From Gammaproteobacteria bacterium (GTDB taxonomy: Bacteria; Pseudomonadota; Gammaproteobacteria; Ga0077536): DNA of 64,000 nucleotides. Location: NCBI GenBank assembly GCA_016191285.1, contig JACPPA010000014.1, forward strand, positions 1-64,000. The letters are read 5' to 3'. Below the pieces are notes generated by a model that saw nothing but the letters and a program-made list of their open reading frames with translations, made no database searches and was not told where the DNA came from. Below are positions 1,336 to 18,836 of this stretch, piece after piece (the stretch's first letter is position 1; each line of letters starts with the position of its first letter). The position numbers and the translations under genes are program-made.

Positions 1336-1397
1336 AGCGCGACGTTAGCACGATAGATTGGCGGGGCGAATTTCGCGTGATGCATAGGAAGGCCGTA

Positions 1398-2579
1398 ATG
1401 AGTGCGACAACCATACTCTACGATGATCGGGTAACCGATGTGGCGAGTGCGAAGGTTACCGGCGAGCAATTATGGCTCACCCCCGCGGAGCTGCGCGCCG
1501 TCACTGGCTGGAAGCTTGAAACCGAGGGTCTGTGCAAAGAGGCGGCCTGCGTACGCGTCGATCCACAATGGCTCGACACGGCTGGCCGAATCAATCTTTC
1601 GGCTTTTGCCGGCCACCTGGGGCAACCCCTCACGCGCGAACCCGCGCATGACGCGTGGGCCTTCGGTGAAAGCGTTAATGCACGCCGCGATGCACTGTTC
1701 GGGCTCGAAGCGCCCAACTTCACGCTGCCCGATCTCGACGGCAAGTTGCATTCGCTTAGCGACTACCGCGGGAAGAAAGTTTTCATGTACTCCTGGGGTT
1801 CCTACTGAGGCTGTAGCTTTGATCTGTCCGTGTGGCAGGTAATCTACGAAGAACTCCGGAACCAAGGCCTCGAAATTATTGCAGTCGCGTTCGACACCGC
1901 AGGCAAACCGGCGGTGGAAGCGAAGATTCGCGCCGCGGATTGCCGCGAACGTCCGGCGGTGTTGGCCCGCCTCATGGGTTGGGCGCCCGATCTGTGGGAC
2001 CGCCAGTCACCACCGACCTACCCGTGCTTGATCGATGAAGGTCACGTTGTCGCTGAACTCTACGGCATGGTCAATGTGCCGCAGGGCGTGTGGATCGACG
2101 AAGCTGGCCGAATCGTACGGCCCGCTGAATCGGCCGGAACGAGCGACATGGTGCGGCATATGAATCGCGAGACTTTCGAAATTCCAGATGCAGCGGCGGC
2201 AAGCGGTGCGGCGGTCCGTAACACCTACATCGATGCGTTGCGCGATTGGGTGAAAAACGGCGCCGCCAGTCCGTATGCGCTATCGGCGAAAGAAGTTAAG
2301 CGCCGGATGCAGGGCCCGAGTGAGGCGGATGTGCGGGCGGCGACACATGTGCGGCTGGGCCGGTATCTGTATGGGAAGGGCGCGCTCGAGCGCGCCAAGC
2401 ATCACTTCGAAGAAGCAGTGCGGCTGTGTCCCAAGAGCTGGAATTATCGCCGCCAGGCGATGATGCTCGACCCAGAGAGTGTTGGCGAACTGAACGCCGG
2501 TCCCAATTTCTGGTCTGCGGTGGATGCGCTCGGCAGCGAGCCGTTTTACGCCCCGGCGGATTTCAGCGTCGCCAGGTGA
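1398..2579 (+). CDS. Two-domain redoxin, candidate selenoprotein (in-frame TGA = Sec137)
   Basis: Two open stretches, 1398-1805 and 1809-2579, lie in the same frame separated only by TGA at 1806-1808. The joined product (393 residues) has an N-terminal domain, a thioredoxin/AhpC-like domain from about residue 110, and a helical TPR-like C-terminus (about 270-390). Around the TGA the sequence is YSWGSY-U-GCSFDLSVWQ. Cysteine members of this family, from recall, have W-A-S-W-C-G-C-R here, so the TGA replaces the first, nucleophilic cysteine. Conservation continues undisturbed downstream (DLxVWQ, NVPQGVWIDEAGRIVRP). A SECIS-like hairpin follows. The ATG at 1398 is preferred over 1377 because AGGAAGG lies five bases upstream. 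The alternative is a nonsense mutation. Other genes here use TGA as stop, so recoding would have to be site-specific. Confidence 0.75.
1822..1840 (+). promoter_or_regulatory. SECIS-like stem-loop downstream of the in-frame TGA
   Basis: Bases 1822-1828 pair with 1834-1840 (A-U, U-G, C-G, U-A, G-C, U-G, C-G), leaving a five-base apical loop CGUGU at 1829-1833. The loop starts 20 bases after the TGA and has G as its second base. Bacterial SECIS elements lie within the coding region directly after UGA and typically have a short apical loop with a G among its first two bases, about 16-37 bases from UGA. The fit is by eye and two of seven pairs are G-U. Confidence 0.5.
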
Positions 2580-2710: not shown

Positions 2711-2959
2711 TCACAATCCCAGATCCTTGCGCAACTTATCCTCAACCGCCTTGACCGCTAACTCTTTGCGCTTTTTATTCCGGTCGCTCTGCGTCTCGGC
2801 GCGCTGCACGCGTTTGGAAATTTCCGCTAGTGCCGCGTCCAGTTCCACGCCGGCCGGTAACTGCAGCGCTGTGTCCAAATCAGAAAGGTACTCCGTGCGT
2901 TTTTTGGGCGGTAACTTCCAGATGCGAATTTTCAGGGCTTGATTGGATTCTGTACTCAC
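2711..2959 (-). CDS. Conserved hypothetical small charged protein (82 aa)
   Basis: The product is highly charged and mostly helical, with an acidic middle and a Lys/Arg-rich C-terminal helix (QSDRNKKRKELAVKAVEDKL). There is no membrane segment, cysteine or recognised domain. The start is GTG at 2957-2959 with AAGGAA six bases upstream, which supports real translation. It converges on the redoxin gene and shares the hairpin at 2619-2655 with it. Function not recognised. Confidence 0.55.
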   Translation of the reverse strand: MSTESNQALKIRIWKLPPKKRTEYLSDLDTALQLPAGVELDAALAEISKRVQRAETQSDRNKKRKELAVKAVEDKLRKDLGL

Positions 2960-3201
2960 GGGGTTTCCTTGTTCATTTAAGCGCCGACGCTAGCGCGGTC
3001 TGTAGGTGCAAGCGGGGCACAACTGGCACCAGCGACCATTGTATTGATGGTAGCCGCATCCGCATAATTCTGCTGCCTTGTGGGCCTCGATCGGCGCCTC
3101 GAAATTGCACAACGTTAGACACCCCCTTGGCGCTCATCTCATCGCTTAGCAAGTCAATGCTAGTATCCAAACTCGGCATACCGACTTGTTTAGGAGAAAC
3201 C

Positions 3202-5049
3202 ATGACCCGCGCGATAGCCTTGAGTTTAGTTCTATTGGCGGTAAGTAGTAGTTATGCCGCGGAACCCGCCGCGCCACCAGCGCCGAGCAACACGCAATGG
3301 TTGAGCTACAACGGCAACGTCAATGGTCAGCGTTATGTCGATCTCAACCAGATCAATGCTGCGAACGCCGCCCAACTGGGCGAAGTGTGCCGGCTCAAGG
3401 TCGACGATACTGGCGCGTTTCATACGGGTATCTTGCAGATCGACGGCGTCCTCTATTTCACGACCGCGACCGATACCTTGGCCGTGGATGCGACGAATTG
3501 CGCCTTGCGCTGGCGCCATCGCTACGAGGCCGAAGACACCGGTGGTTCCGCCTTGCAGGTTAATCGTGGCGTTGCTTACGCCAACGGTAAACTCTTTCGT
3601 GGCACCCTGGATGACCGCCTAATCGCTATCGATATCGCGACCGGCAAAACCCTATGGCAATTCCAGATCGGCGACCCGGCGCAGGGCGAGTTCTTCGCCG
3701 CGGCACCGCAAATTTATCAAGGATTGGTGATCATCGGTGCGGCGGGCGGCGACTGGGGGATCCGCGGGCGCGTAATGGCGTTCGATACGGAAACCGGGCG
3801 CGAAGCGTGGCGCTTCTATACCATTCCGCGCGGCGATGAGCCGGGCGCGAAATCGTGGCGTAACGCACCCAGCGCACGCTATGGCGGCGGTGGCACCTGG
3901 ACCACTTACACGCTCGACATGGCGGCCGGCGAATTATTCGTCTCGGTCGGAAATCCCGCGCCCGACTTTATGCCGGAGCATCGCCCCGGCGACAACCTCT
4001 ACACCAACAGCATGGTGGTGTTGGATGCGGCCACCGGCAAACTCAAGTGGTATCACCAATTGTCATCGAACGATGGCAAGGATCTCGATCTCGGCGCGGC
4101 GCCGATGCTGTATTTCAATAGTAAAGGCGAGCGCATGGTCGCGTTCGGCGGTAAGGACGGTTACCTCTATGGCGTTAATCGCGAAACGCAAAAGCGAGTG
4201 TTCAGGACCCCGGTGACCACGATCACCGCGCCGAAACCAATCCCGAATACAAAATCAGTCGAAGTATGTCCTGGGATTTTGGGTGGCGTCGAATGGAACG
4301 GCCCGGCGTTTGATCAAGCCAATAAGGCGGTGGTGGTGGGCAGTGTGGATTGGTGTGCGACGTTGACCACGGACGACAAGTTCCAATACAAACCGGGCAC
4401 TTTCAATTTCGGCGGCAGTTTTAAGTTCCAGGACAAAAGTCGCGGCTGGGTGGTCGCGGTAGATGCCGATACCGGCGCGCCACGCTGGAAATATGAAACC
4501 ACCGGGCCCCAGGTTTCCGGCATCACCCCGACTGCGGGGGGCGTGATCTTCGCCGGCGATATGGCGGGCAATTTCTTCGCACTCGATAGCCGCGATGGCA
4601 AACCACTGTTCAAAACCGATAGCGGTGGCGCGCACGCCGGCGGGGTGATCACCTACATGCGGAACGGCAAACAATATGTCGCGGTCGCCTCGGGCAATGT
4701 GTCGCGAATTACGTTCGGCGTAGTCGGCAGCCCGACGATCGTGATTTATGCTTTGGATGGCACTGGAGCTGCAGCGCTAACGGCGGCGGCGAGTGCAACA
4801 GTCGCGAGCACTCGCGCGCCGGATCCCGCGAATGGCGCGGCGCTTTTTGGCAAGGTTTGCGCCGCCTGTCACGGCGGTAAAGCCGAGGGTGGCACCGGCC
4901 CCGCGCTGATCGGCCTTTCCAAACGCCTCGATCTCGCCGCGACCGTGAAATGGATCGAAAACCCATCGGCGAAAATGCCGAAGCTCTATCCCGCGCCGTT
5001 AGACGAACAGGCGGTTAAAGACGTCGCGAGTTATGTGCAAGGACTGTGA
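3202..5049 (+). CDS. PQQ-dependent dehydrogenase with C-terminal cytochrome c
   Basis: The 615-residue periplasmic protein starts at ATG 3202 (AGGAG six bases upstream). It has a signal peptide (about 1-19, ending SSYA-AEP), an eight-bladed PQQ propeller (about 30-520) with repeated AxDxxTGxxxW tryptophan-docking motifs, and a cytochrome c domain with CAACH at 553-557. It should oxidise an alcohol or sugar-like substrate and pass electrons to its own haem, as type II quinohaemoprotein dehydrogenases do. The vicinal Cys-Cys of methanol-dehydrogenase-type enzymes is absent at the expected place (SALQVNRG). The catalytic region reads KDLDLGAAP, with two aspartates spaced D-x-D. The upstream in-frame extension to 2830 lacks a signal and is rejected. 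Substrate unknown. Confidence 0.85.
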   Translation: MTRAIALSLVLLAVSSSYAAEPAAPPAPSNTQWLSYNGNVNGQRYVDLNQINAANAAQLGEVCRLKVDDTGAFHTGILQIDGVLYFTTATDTLAVDATNCALRWRHRYEAEDTGGSALQVNRGVAYANGKLFRGTLDDRLIAIDIATGKTLWQFQIGDPAQGEFFAAAPQIYQGLVIIGAAGGDWGIRGRVMAFDTETGREAWRFYTIPRGDEPGAKSWRNAPSARYGGGGTWTTYTLDMAAGELFVSVGNPAPDFMPEHRPGDNLYTNSMVVLDAATGKLKWYHQLSSNDGKDLDLGAAPMLYFNSKGERMVAFGGKDGYLYGVNRETQKRVFRTPVTTITAPKPIPNTKSVEVCPGILGGVEWNGPAFDQANKAVVVGSVDWCATLTTDDKFQYKPGTFNFGGSFKFQDKSRGWVVAVDADTGAPRWKYETTGPQVSGITPTAGGVIFAGDMAGNFFALDSRDGKPLFKTDSGGAHAGGVITYMRNGKQYVAVASGNVSRITFGVVGSPTIVIYALDGTGAAALTAAASATVASTRAPDPANGAALFGKVCAACHGGKAEGGTGPALIGLSKRLDLAATVKWIENPSAKMPKLYPAPLDEQAVKDVASYVQGL

Positions 5050-5098
5050 TGATTCCGCGCGATGGGGCCAGCGCCGTTGCCAGCCCCATCGACCGATC

Positions 5099-5326
5099 TC
5101 ACGCCTCGTATTTGAATGACAAGGAGACCCGTGCCCGATACGCGACGACCTTGCCGTTTTCGATCTTAAGGTCGAGCTTCTGGATCTCCGCCACGCGCAG
5201 GTCGCGCAGCGATTTCGCTGCAGTTTCTACCGCGTTCTTCGCCGCATCTTCCCAGGATTGCGCGCTGGTGCCGATGACTTCCGTTACGCGATAGATTGGC
5301 GACGCGGTGGTTTTGCTTTTAGCCAT
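5099..5326 (-). CDS. Dodecin family protein (non-flavin type)
   Basis: The 75-residue protein matches the dodecin fold along its whole length: IYRVTEVIGTSAQSWEDAA, SLRDLR, then IENGKVVAYRARVSLSFKYE. Dodecins form hollow dodecamers that bind flavins or, in some branches, metals. The tryptophan that sandwiches flavin in archaeal and bacterial flavin dodecins is replaced here (RVAEIQ), so flavin binding of the usual kind is doubtful. A strong GGAGGGG lies ahead of the ATG at 5324-5326. It is convergent with the PQQ dehydrogenase gene, 49 bases away. Confidence 0.85.
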   Translation of the reverse strand: MAKSKTTASPIYRVTEVIGTSAQSWEDAAKNAVETAAKSLRDLRVAEIQKLDLKIENGKVVAYRARVSLSFKYEA

Positions 5327-5433
5327 GATGCCCCTCCGGAGTGGTTGGCGGGATCGACGTCATTCGTGATCCTCGATCTGAGTCTAGCAGCAAAATTCGA
5401 GAACTCTGGGCGACGTTCATAGAGACTCAAAGC

Positions 5434-5514
5434 AAGCCGTACGGATAAGCGGCGCAGCCGCGTAATCCGACAACGCTCGGCGGATGGCGTCCTTCGGACT
5501 GATCCGCCCTACTT
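5434..5514. repeat. Dispersed palindromic intergenic repeat
   Basis: This intergenic stretch contains imperfect inverted segments (CGGATAAGCGGC..GCCGCGTAATCCG and GGCGGATGGCGTCC..GGACTGATCCGCC). The pattern resembles the GTAGGGCGGAT-type dispersed repeats common in gammaproteobacteria. It separates the dodecin gene from the DHA2 exporter. No coding potential is seen. Whether other copies exist in the genome cannot be seen in this window. Confidence 0.4.
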
Positions 5515-5536
5515 GTTTATTCGGCGGCGCGCGAAA

Positions 5537-6949
5537 TTACGCGGTGATTTGCACGCTGCCCCTGCTCACACTTTCACCGTCGTGTGAACGCAGCGTCCAG
5601 AACGAGAGTGACGACAGGATCGTCAGACTACCCAAGGTCAGAAACGCATGATGCAACGCGTTCGTCACCCCCACTTGTTCGGTTTGCGGCAGACCGCCCA
5701 AGTACCAAGCCGTGATCAGTGAACCACAGGCCAGGCCAAAGCTCATCGACATCTGCTGCAACGAACTCGCGATGGTGCTCGCCATGCTCGAATCCGCAGG
5801 GTCGATATCCGCATAGGCCATCGAATTCATGCTCGAAAACTGCAGCGAATTGAAGAACCCCAGCGAAAGGCTGAACAATAGGATCAGGGGAATAGACGTG
5901 GCCGCGTTCACCAGTGAGAAGAGACCGATGGTGATCCCGATAAACAGCGTATTCACGATCAGCACTTGCCGGTAGCCATAGCGGCGCAACACGCGCGAGG
6001 AGATGAGCTTCATACCCATCGCGGCGGCGGCGGCCGGCATCATCAGCAAACCCGATTGCCAGGCCGGCAGACCGAGACCGAGTTGGTAGAGCAGCGGTAG
6101 CAAGAAGGGCAGGCCACCGATGCCGAGCCGCGTGACGAAGCCACCGACGACCGACACCCGAAACGTGCGGACGCGAAACAACGCGAGTCGGAGCAACGGA
6201 TACGGCGTGTGCACTGCATGCCAGCCGTAAGCAGCCAACAGGCTGACCGCGAGCAGCAGCAGGACGGCCGCCGAGGTGATGTCCAGATTATGTTCGCCGA
6301 ATACTTCCAACAACCATGAGAGCAACGCGGTCCCGGCCCCAAACAGGACCAGACCAATCAAGTCCAAGGTGTGCGGTTGATCGTTGCGATAATCCGGCAT
6401 GTAACGATGAATGAGCCACAACGCGGTCAGCCCCACCGGCACATTGACGAAGAAAATCTCGCGCCACGACAGCCAGTGCACGATGAGTCCACCCACCGTC
6501 GGTCCGAGCAGCGGCCCGATCAATGCGGGAATAATGACGAAATTCATCGCCGCTAGCAGCTCCGCTTTGGGAAACGTGCGAATGATCGCGAGCCTGCCAA
6601 CCGGCATCATCATCGCCGCGCCTATCCCCTGCAAAATACGGGTCGCCACCAGCATCGGCGCATTAATGGCCAGACCACACAGGATCGACGCGAGGGTGAA
6701 GATCCCGACCGCGATCGAGAAGACCAGGCGGGTGCCAAACCGATCCGCCATCCAGCCACTCATCGGAATACACACCGCCAAACTCAGGATGTAGCTGGTA
6801 ACTACCGCCTTTAAACTCAAGGGGGTCACGTGCAAACTCGCCGCCATGGCCGGCACAGCGGTGTTGACGATAGTCGAATCGAGTTGCTCCATGAACAAGG
6901 CGGTCGCCACCACCCAGGGCAGATAGCGCTTGATTGCAGCAGGACTCAT
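5537..6949 (-). CDS. DHA2-family MFS drug exporter (EmrB/QacA type)
   Basis: The 470-residue protein has about 14 hydrophobic segments and classic MFS signatures. There is LDSTIVNTAVP in helix 1, a GWMADRFGTR loop (motif A) near residue 65, RILQGIGAAMMMP (helix 4) and LGPTVGGLIVHWLSWREIFFVNVPVG (motif C region and the WR-FxxNxP motif of DHA2 proteins). Such proteins export drugs or organic compounds using the proton gradient. No membrane-fusion partner gene is adjacent. The ATG at 6947-6949 fits the family start. A TetR or MarR regulator, often found beside such genes, is not present. Confidence 0.9.
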   Translation of the reverse strand: MSPAAIKRYLPWVVATALFMEQLDSTIVNTAVPAMAASLHVTPLSLKAVVTSYILSLAVCIPMSGWMADRFGTRLVFSIAVGIFTLASILCGLAINAPMLVATRILQGIGAAMMMPVGRLAIIRTFPKAELLAAMNFVIIPALIGPLLGPTVGGLIVHWLSWREIFFVNVPVGLTALWLIHRYMPDYRNDQPHTLDLIGLVLFGAGTALLSWLLEVFGEHNLDITSAAVLLLLAVSLLAAYGWHAVHTPYPLLRLALFRVRTFRVSVVGGFVTRLGIGGLPFLLPLLYQLGLGLPAWQSGLLMMPAAAAAMGMKLISSRVLRRYGYRQVLIVNTLFIGITIGLFSLVNAATSIPLILLFSLSLGFFNSLQFSSMNSMAYADIDPADSSMASTIASSLQQMSMSFGLACGSLITAWYLGGLPQTEQVGVTNALHHAFLTLGSLTILSSLSFWTLRSHDGESVSRGSVQITA

Positions 6950-7051
6950 GCGCGCACTGTACTCATTCGAGGTTTCTAATTTGCGCTGTATTCGGCGAGA
7001 GTTGCGATTTGGCGTTTATCGGAACGGAAGGCAGCCTGCGCATTCGCTAGT

Positions 7052-7403
7052 TTATCGTGGCGCAGCTTCCTTCAGCAGGTTCGCGTGGTTCGTAGCTAAC
7101 CATTTTTTTGTTTGTGCGAATATTGCTTCTGCTCGGGCTACGCATTCCTTAACCGATTCAGGATCGATCGGTTCGCCAGTGTAGTCGTTTAAATTGCGCT
7201 TACGCCGAGCGTGTCTAACACCAACCAATCTTCCTTACGAACTCTCAACGTAAACGAGAGCGATGCGAGTACCGTCCGATGATTTCCGGGACGCGAGAAT
7301 CTCGAATATTTCTCTCTGCCGCAACGAGTAACCGTTGCGTTTCCGCCGTGTTAGGTACGTGCGGTTTGATCTGATCTGTTCGGACCAGATTATCCAAACT
7401 CAT
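7052..7403 (-). pseudogene. Degraded HEPN-domain toxin partner of the upstream HTH-nucleotidyltransferase
   Basis: An ATG at 7401-7403 overlaps the end of the HTH-MNT gene by 14 bases and starts MSLDNLVRTDQIKPH..AETQRLLVAAERNIRDSRV, the expected beginning of the HEPN protein that follows such genes. The frame stops after about 50 residues. A different frame then gives RRKRNLNDYTGEPIDPESVK..AEAIFAQTKKWLATN to a TAA at 7052-7054, the usual HEPN C-terminus. The core with the catalytic RxxxxH region is lost through a deletion or frameshift. The toxin is therefore probably dead while its antitoxin-type partner remains open. Confidence 0.65.
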
Positions 7404-7971
7404 CGACCGTCCCGATTACCCAAAGCTTGGGTGAGCGCCAAATAGCTGCGACGAACGCATCTTTCGCGGCCTTCTTTCGTATGAACTCGTCCCTTTTCAT
7501 AACGCTGGAGTTAATCTCGCGCCCCAATAGATCGCGAGTATTAGCGAGCGAGCGCACCGCCGCGCTGAAACTCAGGTCCCCGATGATAAGTACGTCCACA
7601 TCGCTACGGTTGGATTCGGACCCCGCTGCAACCGAACCGTAAACCACGGCCGCTTGAATCTTTAGTAGATTTGGTTGCAGAGCCTCGCGAATCACGTCGA
7701 TCAATCCGGCCGTTTTTCGCAATAGCCCGGCGAGTTCGACGAAAACGGGGCAGGCACGATTCGCGGAGAAAAACACTTGCTTGCCGGTCGCCACCCGAGT
7801 AAGTAAGCCGAGCGCGGATAATGCTGTCAATTCGCGGTGCAAGGTGCCCGGCGAAATGCCCGTCAAGCGGGCTATTTCCCGCACGTGTAACCGGTCTTCT
7901 GGGCGCAACATTAGGACCGCAAGAATTGCGGTCCGCGTTTGACCCAGTAAGTGATGAATTAGGCTTTTCAT
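7390..7971 (-). CDS. HTH-nucleotidyltransferase (MNT) fusion protein, antitoxin-type
   Basis: The protein (193 residues from ATG 7971) has an N-terminal winged helix (HVREIARLTGISPGTLHRELTAL), an ArsR-like wing and a minimal nucleotidyltransferase domain with GSVAAGSESNRSDVDVLI, carrying the GS and DxD metal-binding motifs intact. MNT proteins paired with HEPN toxins silence the toxin by AMPylation, and the HTH suggests operon autoregulation. An upstream start at 8034 would add 21 atypical residues. The 7971 ATG has AAAAGAGA before it and fits family length. Its HEPN partner downstream is broken, so it is an orphan antitoxin. Confidence 0.75.
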   Translation of the reverse strand: MKSLIHHLLGQTRTAILAVLMLRPEDRLHVREIARLTGISPGTLHRELTALSALGLLTRVATGKQVFFSANRACPVFVELAGLLRKTAGLIDVIREALQPNLLKIQAAVVYGSVAAGSESNRSDVDVLIIGDLSFSAAVRSLANTRDLLGREINSSVMKRDEFIRKKAAKDAFVAAIWRSPKLWVIGTVDEFG

Positions 7972-8033
7972 GTTCTCTTTTCGGCAACAAATGTAGCCAT
8001 TATGAGAACGCTCCGCAAGTTCGTTACGGGCCA

Positions 8034-8153
8034 TTAACCTTTCAAATCTTCCGCAATTGTCGCGATTTTTTCGAGCGCGACTTCCAAGTCGGCGGCAATA
8101 TCCGCCGCGATGATCTCAGGCGACGAGGTTGGTGGATTCTTCGATTCTGCGGG
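8034..8153 (-). pseudogene. C-terminal remnant of an unknown gene (39 codons)
   Basis: A frame open after a TAG encodes PEIIAADIAADLEVALEKIA followed by TIAEDLKG and a TAA at 8034-8036, which overlaps an ATG (TAATG). This acidic helical tail resembles the C-terminal helices of some type I modification subunits, but that is only an impression. No start codon or ribosome site belongs to it, so it is read as the 3' stub of a gene lost by deletion. Confidence 0.3.
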
Positions 8154-15963: not shown

Positions 15964-17664
15964 CTAAAACAACTCCCCCGCCCGCTCTCCAAAAAATCCC
16001 GCCGGCCATTTATCGATAAACTCGCCATCCGCGCGAATCCGTAGGCGCTTGAAGACAGTCTGATCATTCGGGATGTGGATGAAATAAACGGATATATCGT
16101 CCGGCGTCAGGGCAAAGGTATTGGGTGGCAACTCACCGTCGGTCGTTTCGCGAATGCGGCGAAGGACGCGGAGCATCAGGTGCTCGCTGTGTGTCTCGAT
16201 CAAAAATATTACATCGGCTTCCCGAATTCGAGACGCAAACAAGTCGCCGAAGCCCATCTGGGTCTTGGGGTGTAGATGAAGCTCTGGCTGCTCCACCGCG
16301 ACAATGCCGCGGCGTGTTTCGAGTGCGGCGACCACCACTGGCAGTAGTTGCGAGATCCCAACGCCGATATCTCGCGCGTGCACCGTTGTGCGGGTTCGCT
16401 CGTCGACGATTCCCAGGCTCGTCACAGTCGGTGCGCGTTCGAGCAATCGTTTTACTTCATCGAGATTCTCTTCGGCATCGGCGCCACCAAGGAGGCCAAC
16501 CAAGTACTGCCACTCGTCGAGTTCCTTGTAGTTGCGTCGAATTAGCCGGTAGCCAGTCTCGAAGCGATCGTCTCTCGCAATCCAGTCGTTGACGCGATCA
16601 AGAAAGGTCTGGGTCTCGGTATTCAGAATATCCCATGCCCTGCTGCCATCGGCCCAACGCCCGATCATCGGCGAACGCTGTGCCGTACTGGTACGGTCCG
16701 GGATATTCCGATACGGGCCTAGGTACACGATGTCATCGAGCAAATCCCGAAGCAGGTCCAGGGGGCCGACGATTAAGGCGCTTAAGACGGCCGATATCAC
16801 CATATCGGTTTGAAAAACACTCGCTCGCTCGTCCGTTTGCCATGTGCCTGCAGGGAAAGTGAGCCTTTGTCCTCTCGGCGGAATTCCGTCAGGACAGGTC
16901 GGTAACGCGATGTCGCCCACGAATACTCTGAGTTTTCCTCTGAAATTGCCCCACTTTTTAAACGTTTCTGAAATACATTCATCTAGGTAGTCACCAAACG
17001 TTTCACTGTCGGCGTCCGCTTCCGCATCGACCTGTGCAAACGCTGATTCCAAATCTTCTAGATTGATATCCGCAGAACCTTCCGAATCCAAATCTTCGGG
17101 CCAGCCTTCGCCCCCAAACAGGGGATGATAGATATCCAGGAACTTCAGCCGCACATCCTTGGCATCCGCTTGCTGCTCAATGATCGCCAGGGGTTTGTCG
17201 TTGATATCGATGCGCAAGGTCGAGGCATAGGGCGTCTGCCGGATTTCGCTCCAGTGAATACTTAAAGCAACGGTGACATCGTTGACGCCTTTCAGCACTT
17301 TATCGGGTTGGTAAAGCGCTGCGTTGACGGATTCAAGCGTTAACCATTCGTCGCCAAGTAAAAAATTTGGCAATTCGCGTTCGGATAGATCAAGCACTGC
17401 CACGAAGCGCATGGGTTCCATCGAGTCGTTACTGTGCAGTAGATTCCGATAGCCACCCAGGTCCATAGCGGCCCCGCCCATCAAGGTCAGGTCCGCATCC
17501 AAATTGTTGCGGCCGAGGATTTCGTGCAGGTAGGCGAGTGCCTGTAACACAGTGCTCTTGCCGGCACTGTTCGGACCGAACAATAGCGTGATCGGTTTGA
17601 GTTCAATTCGCTGTGGATCGCGAATGCCCTTGAAGTTCTGGATGGTGAGTGATTTTAGGAGCAT
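15964..17664 (-). CDS. SMC/OLD-like AAA ATPase with C-terminal DUF3696 tail
   Basis: The 566-residue protein begins IQNFKGIRDPQRIELKPITL, then Walker A GPNSAGKST (30-38). The middle insertion is long, followed by the ABC-type signature region RDIGVGISQLLPVVVAAL, Walker B IVAVEQPELHLHPK and the switch ETHSEHLMLRVLRRI. The last residues, FIDKWPAGFFGERAGELF, match the DUF3696 tail. Such ATPases drive nucleases in OLD, Gabija and PARIS-like defense pairs. No TOPRIM domain is fused here. The start overlaps hsdS by ten bases and the next gene follows after two bases, so this pair is built into the restriction operon. Confidence 0.8.
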   Translation of the reverse strand: MLLKSLTIQNFKGIRDPQRIELKPITLLFGPNSAGKSTVLQALAYLHEILGRNNLDADLTLMGGAAMDLGGYRNLLHSNDSMEPMRFVAVLDLSERELPNFLLGDEWLTLESVNAALYQPDKVLKGVNDVTVALSIHWSEIRQTPYASTLRIDINDKPLAIIEQQADAKDVRLKFLDIYHPLFGGEGWPEDLDSEGSADINLEDLESAFAQVDAEADADSETFGDYLDECISETFKKWGNFRGKLRVFVGDIALPTCPDGIPPRGQRLTFPAGTWQTDERASVFQTDMVISAVLSALIVGPLDLLRDLLDDIVYLGPYRNIPDRTSTAQRSPMIGRWADGSRAWDILNTETQTFLDRVNDWIARDDRFETGYRLIRRNYKELDEWQYLVGLLGGADAEENLDEVKRLLERAPTVTSLGIVDERTRTTVHARDIGVGISQLLPVVVAALETRRGIVAVEQPELHLHPKTQMGFGDLFASRIREADVIFLIETHSEHLMLRVLRRIRETTDGELPPNTFALTPDDISVYFIHIPNDQTVFKRLRIRADGEFIDKWPAGFFGERAGELF

Positions 17665-18836
17665 GTCAGTGATGTCATCGGCTCGCTGCTATCTTCGAGG
17701 GGCATAGCGGCTTTCGAGAGCTCGCCGCGGAAAGCGCGGTGCTGGAGGCTCGCGAAGAGCGCGTCCAACTCCCTTAGCGAAGCGCGCTGTGCAGTCTTCA
17801 CCTTCTCCACTGCAGTGACTCGGCGGGCGAATTCACGCTGCAATTCGATGGGGGGCACTGGGACGACAAGATTTCGCAGCAAGGCCAAATTGATATTTTT
17901 CTGCGCAGATTCGGGCGCAGCGTCTTCAAGCGCCTTCTGGAGAAAGGAAAGCCAACTGCGCACGAACTGCACCGTTGCGAATTCCTCAGCACGAAAACCC
18001 ACGATGCTGTCGGGGAAGCACGCGTCGAAGGTGAGAATTCCAGTCTTCGCAATATTCGCGGCAATCGTGATGCACAGCGTTCCCGCTGGCCACATTTTGC
18101 TCTGCCGCAGCCCAACTTCAGAATAAGTGCTGTGATATTCGCGAATATATCCATCGCAGTTCGCGACTTCGCCTGTTTGTACCAATGGGTAAGGCCCGCC
18201 TAAGAGTTCTGGTGCATTTCGCGGACGATGCTTGGAAGCACCACGGTCAAGCGTGCCAACTTCGGAGAACAATTTTCGCGACCAACTTTTTAGATTAATA
18301 ACGGGGTCGCCGAAGAGGTCGAGAAAGATAGATTGGGCGAGGGAGTCGAGTTGAACGAGAGCAGCACGGCGCTTGGCCCGCAACGCCTCCGCCCGGTCCA
18401 GCACCTCCGCAATCCGCCGCTGTTCCGCCAGCGGCGGCAGCTTTAGTTTCTGTCGATATGCGTCCTCGCGATTAAGGCCCGGTACAGCCGCCGCCTTGTT
18501 TAGCCGAGTAAGACCAAGACCTTTGAGTCGATAGGCGAGCCATCGAAGGTCAGTCTTCGTCGCGCTCCCGTCGATGAAGTAGGTCGTATCAATTGGCCAG
18601 CATGGGGCGGGAGACAGATGCACTTCACCGAACGAACCCTTCCGTCCAACGACGATTGTTGGTCCTTCGGTGATTGGTTCGGTGTGCCGCCCGACTATAC
18701 CGTTTGAGCCATAGACCGCGATTTCGCCTCCTGCTCGTTTTTCCTCGGGCAGACTCTTCCCATATTTGAACTCGCAGACTTCGCCGAGGGAAACCTCCGG
18801 CCATTCATCCTTCGTCATTCGACCTTCGGACTTCAC
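17655..18836 (-). CDS. hsdS: Type I restriction-modification specificity subunit
   Basis: The 393-residue protein has two target-recognition domains. The first starts [17 protein letters not shown] and ends [27 protein letters not shown], the conserved helical spacer. The second starts [14 protein letters not shown] and ends [36 protein letters not shown]. It sets the bipartite DNA target of the methylase and nuclease. The GTG start at 18836 overlaps the hsdM stop (GTGA) and has GGAGGGG about eight bases upstream. An ATG six codons later is an alternative. It overlaps the ATPase gene by ten bases. Confidence 0.92.

Follow-up and report, generated by a model that had tools for sequence, protein, structure and literature searches.

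Positions 1398 to 2579 of the window (the whole stretch of 64,000 nucleotides that was analysed) very probably encode a thioredoxin-fold selenoprotein in which the UGA at 1806-1808 is read as selenocysteine (Sec) in a ResA/TlpA-type redox centre; we put the probability of this reading at about 0.92. The initial annotation of this DNA had proposed that Sec replaces a catalytic cysteine here through UGA recoding, and this was supported by the conservation of the UGA, the presence of the sel genes in the genome, and a frozen codon in the loop of the hairpin that follows. The features of a bacterial selenoprotein gene were found together, namely a conserved in-frame UGA with coding constraint on either side, sel genes, and a hairpin with an apical G. 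Sequence analysis supports the frame, the conserved UGA and its readthrough, the decoding genes, and the predicted fold.

Reading frame and features

Feature coordinates are listed in Table 1. The two halves of the gene lie in one frame, as had been annotated and as was confirmed from the sequence, and the internal TGA is the only interruption. The mechanical ORF list breaks the gene into 1377-1808 and 1830-2579, and a standard-code ORF finder would split it in two. The source genome (G000; 5.1 Mb, 60 contigs) holds a single strong match to the gene and two more weak ones (E 5.9e-5 and 5.4e-4). Another match with a TGA in this genome (L003, C59:60495-60758) was rejected, since its frame is that of an ordinary peroxiredoxin-like protein and the TGA precedes the apparent start.

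Table 1. Features of the predicted selenoprotein gene (positions in the window).
Feature	Position	Strand	Details
Predicted selenoprotein gene	1398..2579	+	393 aa including Sec137; ATG at 1398; terminal stop TGA at 2577-2579
AGGAAGG, likely Shine-Dalgarno sequence	1386..1392	+	5 nt upstream of ATG 1398; judged from the sequence
N-terminal part, about residues 1-100	1398..1697	+	without Pfam match; block of the model with pLDDT 84-96
Invariant Cys46	1533-1535	+	23/23 rows of alignment A1
Invariant Cys51	1548-1550	+	23/23 rows of A1
Thioredoxin-fold domain (AhpC-TSA/Redoxin), residues ~102-240	1701..2117	+	Pfam PF00578, E 2.3e-13; ResA is the best PDB match
In-frame TGA, predicted Sec137, first active-site residue of U-G-C	1806..1808	+	TGA conserved in homologues
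Cys139, presumed resolving cysteine	1812..1814	+	invariant, 23/23
Putative bacterial SECIS hairpin, 7-bp stem	1822..1840	+	loop CGUGU at 1829-1833
24-residue insertion, residues 182-205	1941..2012	+	window's clade; 24-column gap in the other A1 rows
Pro228 in N-V-P	2079..2081	+	invariant, 23/23
TPR-like C-terminal part, residues 314-346	2337..2435	+	PF07719, 23.4 bits, cut-off 27; all-helical in the model

Recurrence of the UGA and coding constraint around it

The window's order, which is represented here by one family of 36 genomes, gave 33 matches in 26 genomes; two miss the site, and the 31 that cover it each hold one TGA. On codon inspection, from which the G005:C2 and G035:C26 copies were left out, all 29 copies had the TGA exactly at the site. 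The same was true of all 35 distinct gene regions, which were collected with a motif allowing any residue at the Sec site, among them 6/6 genes from a more distant clade (L062-L067; 32-33% identity in the best segment, motif WASWUGC or WSSWUGC). In a sample of the phylum scored with A1, the family was present in 2 of 398 genomes; besides the window's own, this was G523, a genome of a different class that is 100% complete in one contig and has the motif WASWUGC. Matches were then counted in 71 of the 76 genomes of G523's order (79 matches); one misses the site, all 78 that cover it hold at least one TGA, and base-by-base inspection of 30 loci placed the TGA at the site in every one. Of 369 genomes in a class-wide sample scored with the NCBIfam model NF041054, 3 had the long form, each belonging to the window's own family, and the other 14 matches were short frames (W-C-x-x-C in 13 of 14 by a motif script, nothing for L076). 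Absence in these two wide samples (369 and 398 genomes) is no proof, because at most five first-look candidates were scored per genome. Plasmid records gave no match at E 1e-10.

Relatives checked for the same UGA retain the TGA at this codon, and no sense codon occurs there in the 35 regions or in the 30 loci of G523's order. A Cys form of the long family was likewise not seen in the window's order, G523's order, L062-L067, or the class and phylum samples. Family conservation was said in the annotation to continue past the TGA, and A1 agrees: homologues 69-79% identical to the window's protein align over the full length, residues 137-139 are invariant in 23/23 rows, and the sequence after the TGA is conserved rather than decayed. 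A lone in-frame TGA in a single genome would be typical of a nonsense mutation, a pseudogene, or a sequencing error, and such an origin has a practically negligible probability here given the same TGA in 35/35 regions, in 30/30 loci of another order, and in a complete one-contig genome, with conserved sequence downstream. Base-calling error in particular is untenable, since the TGA recurs in many genomes including G523. Both in the window's lineage and in another order of its phylum, the genes examined keep the presumably catalytic UGA and offer no Cys alternative, and the family therefore lends itself to the question of why Cys has not taken the place of Sec.

Ten related loci are in named records (Gammaproteobacteria, 5; Proteobacteria/Pseudomonadota, 2; Klebsiella pneumoniae, 3, probably mislabelled). 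L054, L055, and L060 are public MAG records labelled Klebsiella pneumoniae, and the label looks wrong. Genomes G005 and G035 carry three family copies each, of which by identity two belong to the window's clade and one to the order's other clade.

A stop at the TGA followed by a restart at GTG1830, giving two proteins from two cistrons, would account for the mechanical ORF that begins at that GTG and for the conservation of the GTG (35/35 and 30/30). The seven codons between the TGA and GTG1830 had 33 silent and 10 replacement changes by parsimony on the tree of the 35 distinct genes, compared with 108 silent and 42 replacement changes in the 14 codons before the TGA and 108 silent and 102 replacement changes in codons +11 to +25. 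The codons for Gly138, Cys139, and Asp142 together had 15 silent changes and no replacements, and the Cys139 codon is TGC in 18 genes and TGT in 17, with 8 inferred silent changes. The motif used for collecting genes requires G, C, and D at 138, 139, and 142, which could bias the silent/replacement count; every homologous locus inspected fitted the motif, none was lost to it, and in A1, which was built without it, the three residues are invariant (23/23). The codons from the TGA to GTG1830 thus evolve as coding sequence, which argues against termination and restart. Such a split would also sever the active-site region of what is predicted to be a single thioredoxin fold, and by eye no Shine-Dalgarno sequence lies at the usual distance before GTG1830, the GAGG of TGAGG being about 20 nt away. 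We consider two cistrons very improbable and favour translation through the UGA.

Decoding machinery

The source genome was searched for selA, selB, selC, and selD, which the annotation had named as a check of its reading, and all were present, each above its curated cut-off. On contig C37, selA (4715-6064; 583.7 bits, cut-off 267.9), selB (6112-8001; 396.3 bits, cut-off 242.25), and the tRNA-Sec gene selC (8055-8146; 59.2 bits, gathering score 47) adjoin, and selD (16912-17820; 283.6 bits, cut-off 125) is nearby on the same contig. ARAGORN also called the C37 tRNA as tRNA-SeC, with anticodon tca. The selD of this genome appears from its sequence to be the Cys form. It (L050) forms the latter part of one frame, and the first half of that frame resembles, by eye, an NADH dehydrogenase/FAD oxidoreductase. 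The covariance search gave a further tRNA-Sec match (G000:C53:239814-239899), which at 47.7 bits barely exceeds the gathering score of 47 and is perhaps another long-arm tRNA.

UGA might instead be read as an ordinary amino acid through a suppressor tRNA or an altered code, and a frame that is open under a changed code would fit any residue. The genome has the full Sec gene set, and the site matches the redox-active Cys of ResA. For 33 of the 35 genes the end is known, and their stop codons are TAG in 13, TGA in 10, and TAA in 10; since 10 of 33 genes, the window's included, end in TGA, this codon is also a genuine stop. An ordinary amino acid at the site is accordingly exceedingly improbable, and the decoding genes favour Sec.

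Within the window's order, selB was found in 23 of 25 gene-bearing genomes and in 8 of 11 others (Fisher p = 0.15); there is no significant tracking, and the co-occurrence of the gene with selB is uninformative. For this test G010 and G030 were counted as selB-positive because their selB is split over contigs, and G032 was counted as gene-negative because its match stops short of the Sec site. The gene is present and no selB was found in G009 (86% complete) and G029 (87%).

Hairpin downstream of the UGA

The annotation had described a stem-loop with G in a 5-base apical loop starting 14 bases after the TGA, and the hairpin was found as described, with its stem at 1822-1828/1834-1840 and G as the second base of the loop. 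The E. coli fdhF SECIS is a short hairpin after the UGA that likewise has G in a small apical loop. Compared with that element, as we take it to be, the apical G of the window lies 2 nt farther from the UGA and the bulged U is not conserved. Rfam gave two matches on the gene, both far under their gathering scores. The z-score was -0.82 for the 40-nt fold and -2.76 for the 23-nt hairpin, and the hairpins of three homologues had z-scores of -0.39, -2.12, and -1.22. Stems of at least 7 pairs were obtained in 35.5% of synonymous recodings of the window's region (P = 0.355). The window's hairpin by itself is modest evidence, and it is partly forced by the protein sequence.

The hairpin is supported because of codon conservation across homologues. 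In all 35 genes the loop Val codon (+8) is GTG, which makes it the most frozen codon of the gene, first among 93 scored columns and the only one of them in which every gene has the same codon; it is also GTG in 30/30 loci of G523's order. The best 8-codon windows begin at codons +3 to +5 and each contain 4 scored columns. The codon before the loop GTG is TCC in 22 and CCC in 13 of the 35 genes, and CCC in 30/30 loci of G523's order. Of the 35 genes, 29 have a stem of at least 5 pairs at the fixed place; over 200 synonymous recodings this number averaged 10.5 and never exceeded 18. Stems under 5 occur in the six genes L062-L067 (clade C), in which the stem is broken after 4 pairs; in G523's order the stem has 5 pairs in 20 loci and 6 pairs in 10. 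Paired cells amounted to 86.6%, above 500/500 shuffles and every slid version. Base-pair covariation is weak and adds no support, with two-sided change in one of seven pairs (2 cells); of 500 shuffles, 482 and 383 did equally well or better.

Predicted fold and proposed redox centre

The best Pfam match was AhpC-TSA (PF00578, 50.6 bits, cut-off 26), followed by Redoxin (34.9 bits); GSHPx matched weakly, and TPR matches were all under their cut-offs. The AlphaFold2 model had a mean pLDDT of 89.1 and a pTM of 0.88. Its best PDB match by fold was ResA (E 6.3e-10), with a TM-score of 0.76 by target and 0.28 by query, the latter low because one domain matches. Ranks 1-19 among the 50 fold matches listed are ResA-type, with peroxiredoxins lower, and ResA also leads the PDB matches by sequence of the thioredoxin domain. 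A profile search of the whole alignment against the PDB placed two engineered TPR proteins at the top, followed by thioredoxin-family and ResA entries.

These matches bear on whether the protein, with Sec inserted, would be a peroxiredoxin-type peroxidase rather than a ResA/TlpA-type disulfide reductase. The AhpC/TSA and GSHPx matches and the peroxiredoxins lower in the fold search lean towards a peroxidase, which has an appreciable if smaller likelihood, whereas the lead of ResA by both domain sequence and model fold, the place of thioredoxin-family and ResA entries next after the engineered proteins, and the invariant N-V-P, which presumably fits the thioredoxin cis-Pro, point to the reductase. 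We take Pro228 of N-V-P to be at the cis-Pro position of thioredoxin folds. The invariants of A1 (23/23) include C46, C51, residue 137, G138, C139, W146, and P228.

The TGA had been placed at the first Cys of a C-G-C motif in cysteine relatives. The position stands, as Sec137 falls opposite the first CxxC cysteine of ResA in the alignment, the spacing to the second Cys being one residue shorter; the motif does not, as no C-G-C relative was seen and the cysteine relatives that were seen are ResA/TlpA-like with C-x-x-C. The window's protein shares the thioredoxin fold with Bacillus ResA (PDB 1st9, 1su9, 4nmu) and differs from it in having Sec in place of the first Cys, a UxC active site one residue shorter than CxxC, and additional N-terminal and TPR-like C-terminal parts. 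Its row of A1 shows, by eye, no evident export signal; rows L062-L067 have an N-terminal extension that by eye is hydrophobic and signal-like in most.

From these data we infer Sec insertion itself, the redox chemistry, the role of Cys46 and Cys51, and the substrate. SelB with Sec-tRNA would bind the hairpin just after the UGA, and the ribosome would place selenocysteine at that codon rather than terminating. Sec137 would be the nucleophile of the ResA/TlpA-type redox centre and would attack peroxide or a disulfide, Cys139 would resolve the intermediate by forming a selenenylsulfide with Sec137, and this bond would be reduced by a thiol donor; the attacking and resolving roles are assumed by analogy with ResA and known Sec enzymes. 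The invariant N-terminal Cys46 and Cys51 may pass electrons on. A more speculative proposal, which we regard as rather unlikely, is that the long UGC family is Sec-dependent with no Cys version anywhere, and that in the window's clade the protein would be cytoplasmic with Cys46/Cys51 as a built-in reductant for Sec137-Cys139, forming a self-contained selenium relay.

Relation to catalogued families

The gene is a lineage-specific variant of a selenoprotein family already catalogued in NCBIfam and in reviews. NF041054, 'ResA-like WAxxUGC motif-containing protein', was the sole NCBIfam model matched at E 1e-30, by 23/23 A1 members. Scored with Cys substituted for Sec, the window's protein is homologous to it over the long architecture (294.9 bits, E 9.2e-88) and falls short of the curated cut-off of 300; a 24-residue insertion cuts its match in two. 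The W-A-x-x-U-G-C motif reads W-G-S-Y-U-G-C in the window, with UGC kept and A replaced by G. The model passes 4 of 17 proteins overall, L116 (313.6) and three of the nine scored from the window's clade (L020, 311.3; L032, 306.2; L027, 303.8). The other six of the clade are L021 (298.2), L030 (295.4), the window, L024 (294.3), L060 (272.3), and L033 (270.9). Scores below 300 were also given by L111 (296), L119 (291.8), L040 (285.9), L036 (282.4), L039 (266.5), L062 (246.4), and L065 (233.8); for L111, L116, and L119 a script chose the starts, possibly truncating the proteins and so depressing the scores.

A tree of 59 rows that includes the WASWUGC genes, for which the program flagged long branches at the L062 group and at L065, places the 15 window-type rows in one clade with 100/100 support, and G523's order is not a single clade. 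The window's clade appears distinctive in its WGSYUGC motif, its 24-residue insertion, and the lack of an evident export signal.

Any suggestion that the family is new would not hold, as it is already NF041054 in NCBIfam and a UGC selenoprotein is in print, judged by motif and domain. The 2008 Global Ocean Sampling survey (PMC2398784) has, in the part available, a 'Prx-like (UGC-containing)' selenoprotein with pfam00578 and UGC, and its table row prints 46, 15, and 855, which we take as the numbers of Sec sequences, of samples, and of Cys homologues, respectively. The window's gene belongs with it by pfam00578 and UGC (residues 137-139 here) and differs in that the present searches turned up no Cys form of the long family, against the 855 apparent Cys homologues of that row. 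The available parts of two further sources list a 'UGC-containing Prx-like' selenoprotein with pfam00578 and UGC (PMC9312934) and a 'UGC-containing TlpA disulfide reductase family protein' with domain cd02966 and the UGC motif (PMC13188914); the available part of PMC5029168 has no mention of UGC. Published examples are MBL6689828.1 and MDE0950781.1, and identity with the 2008 UGC family rests on motif and domain. The literature library searched returned no paper on NF041054, WAxxUGC, ResA-like selenocysteine proteins, or acidobacterial redoxin selenoproteins.

Neighbouring genes

No partner is common to all 17 loci compared, and with no neighbour constant the context does not name a substrate. 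In the window, a PQQ-dependent dehydrogenase-like gene with a C-terminal cytochrome c domain (2830-5046) comes after the selenoprotein gene; its homologues occur in 5 of the 17 loci, the window included, and in L052, L054, and L057 a related gene directly precedes that for the selenoprotein. Homologues of an H-NOX (haem-NO-binding) protein and a hybrid histidine kinase are both found in these same three loci, and in L054 (7249-9477) the pair lies downstream of the selenoprotein gene and is encoded on the other strand. In the distant signal-bearing clade, the gene can come after DUF1592-type (PSD), DUF1552, and ankyrin-repeat genes (L062:442-5862).
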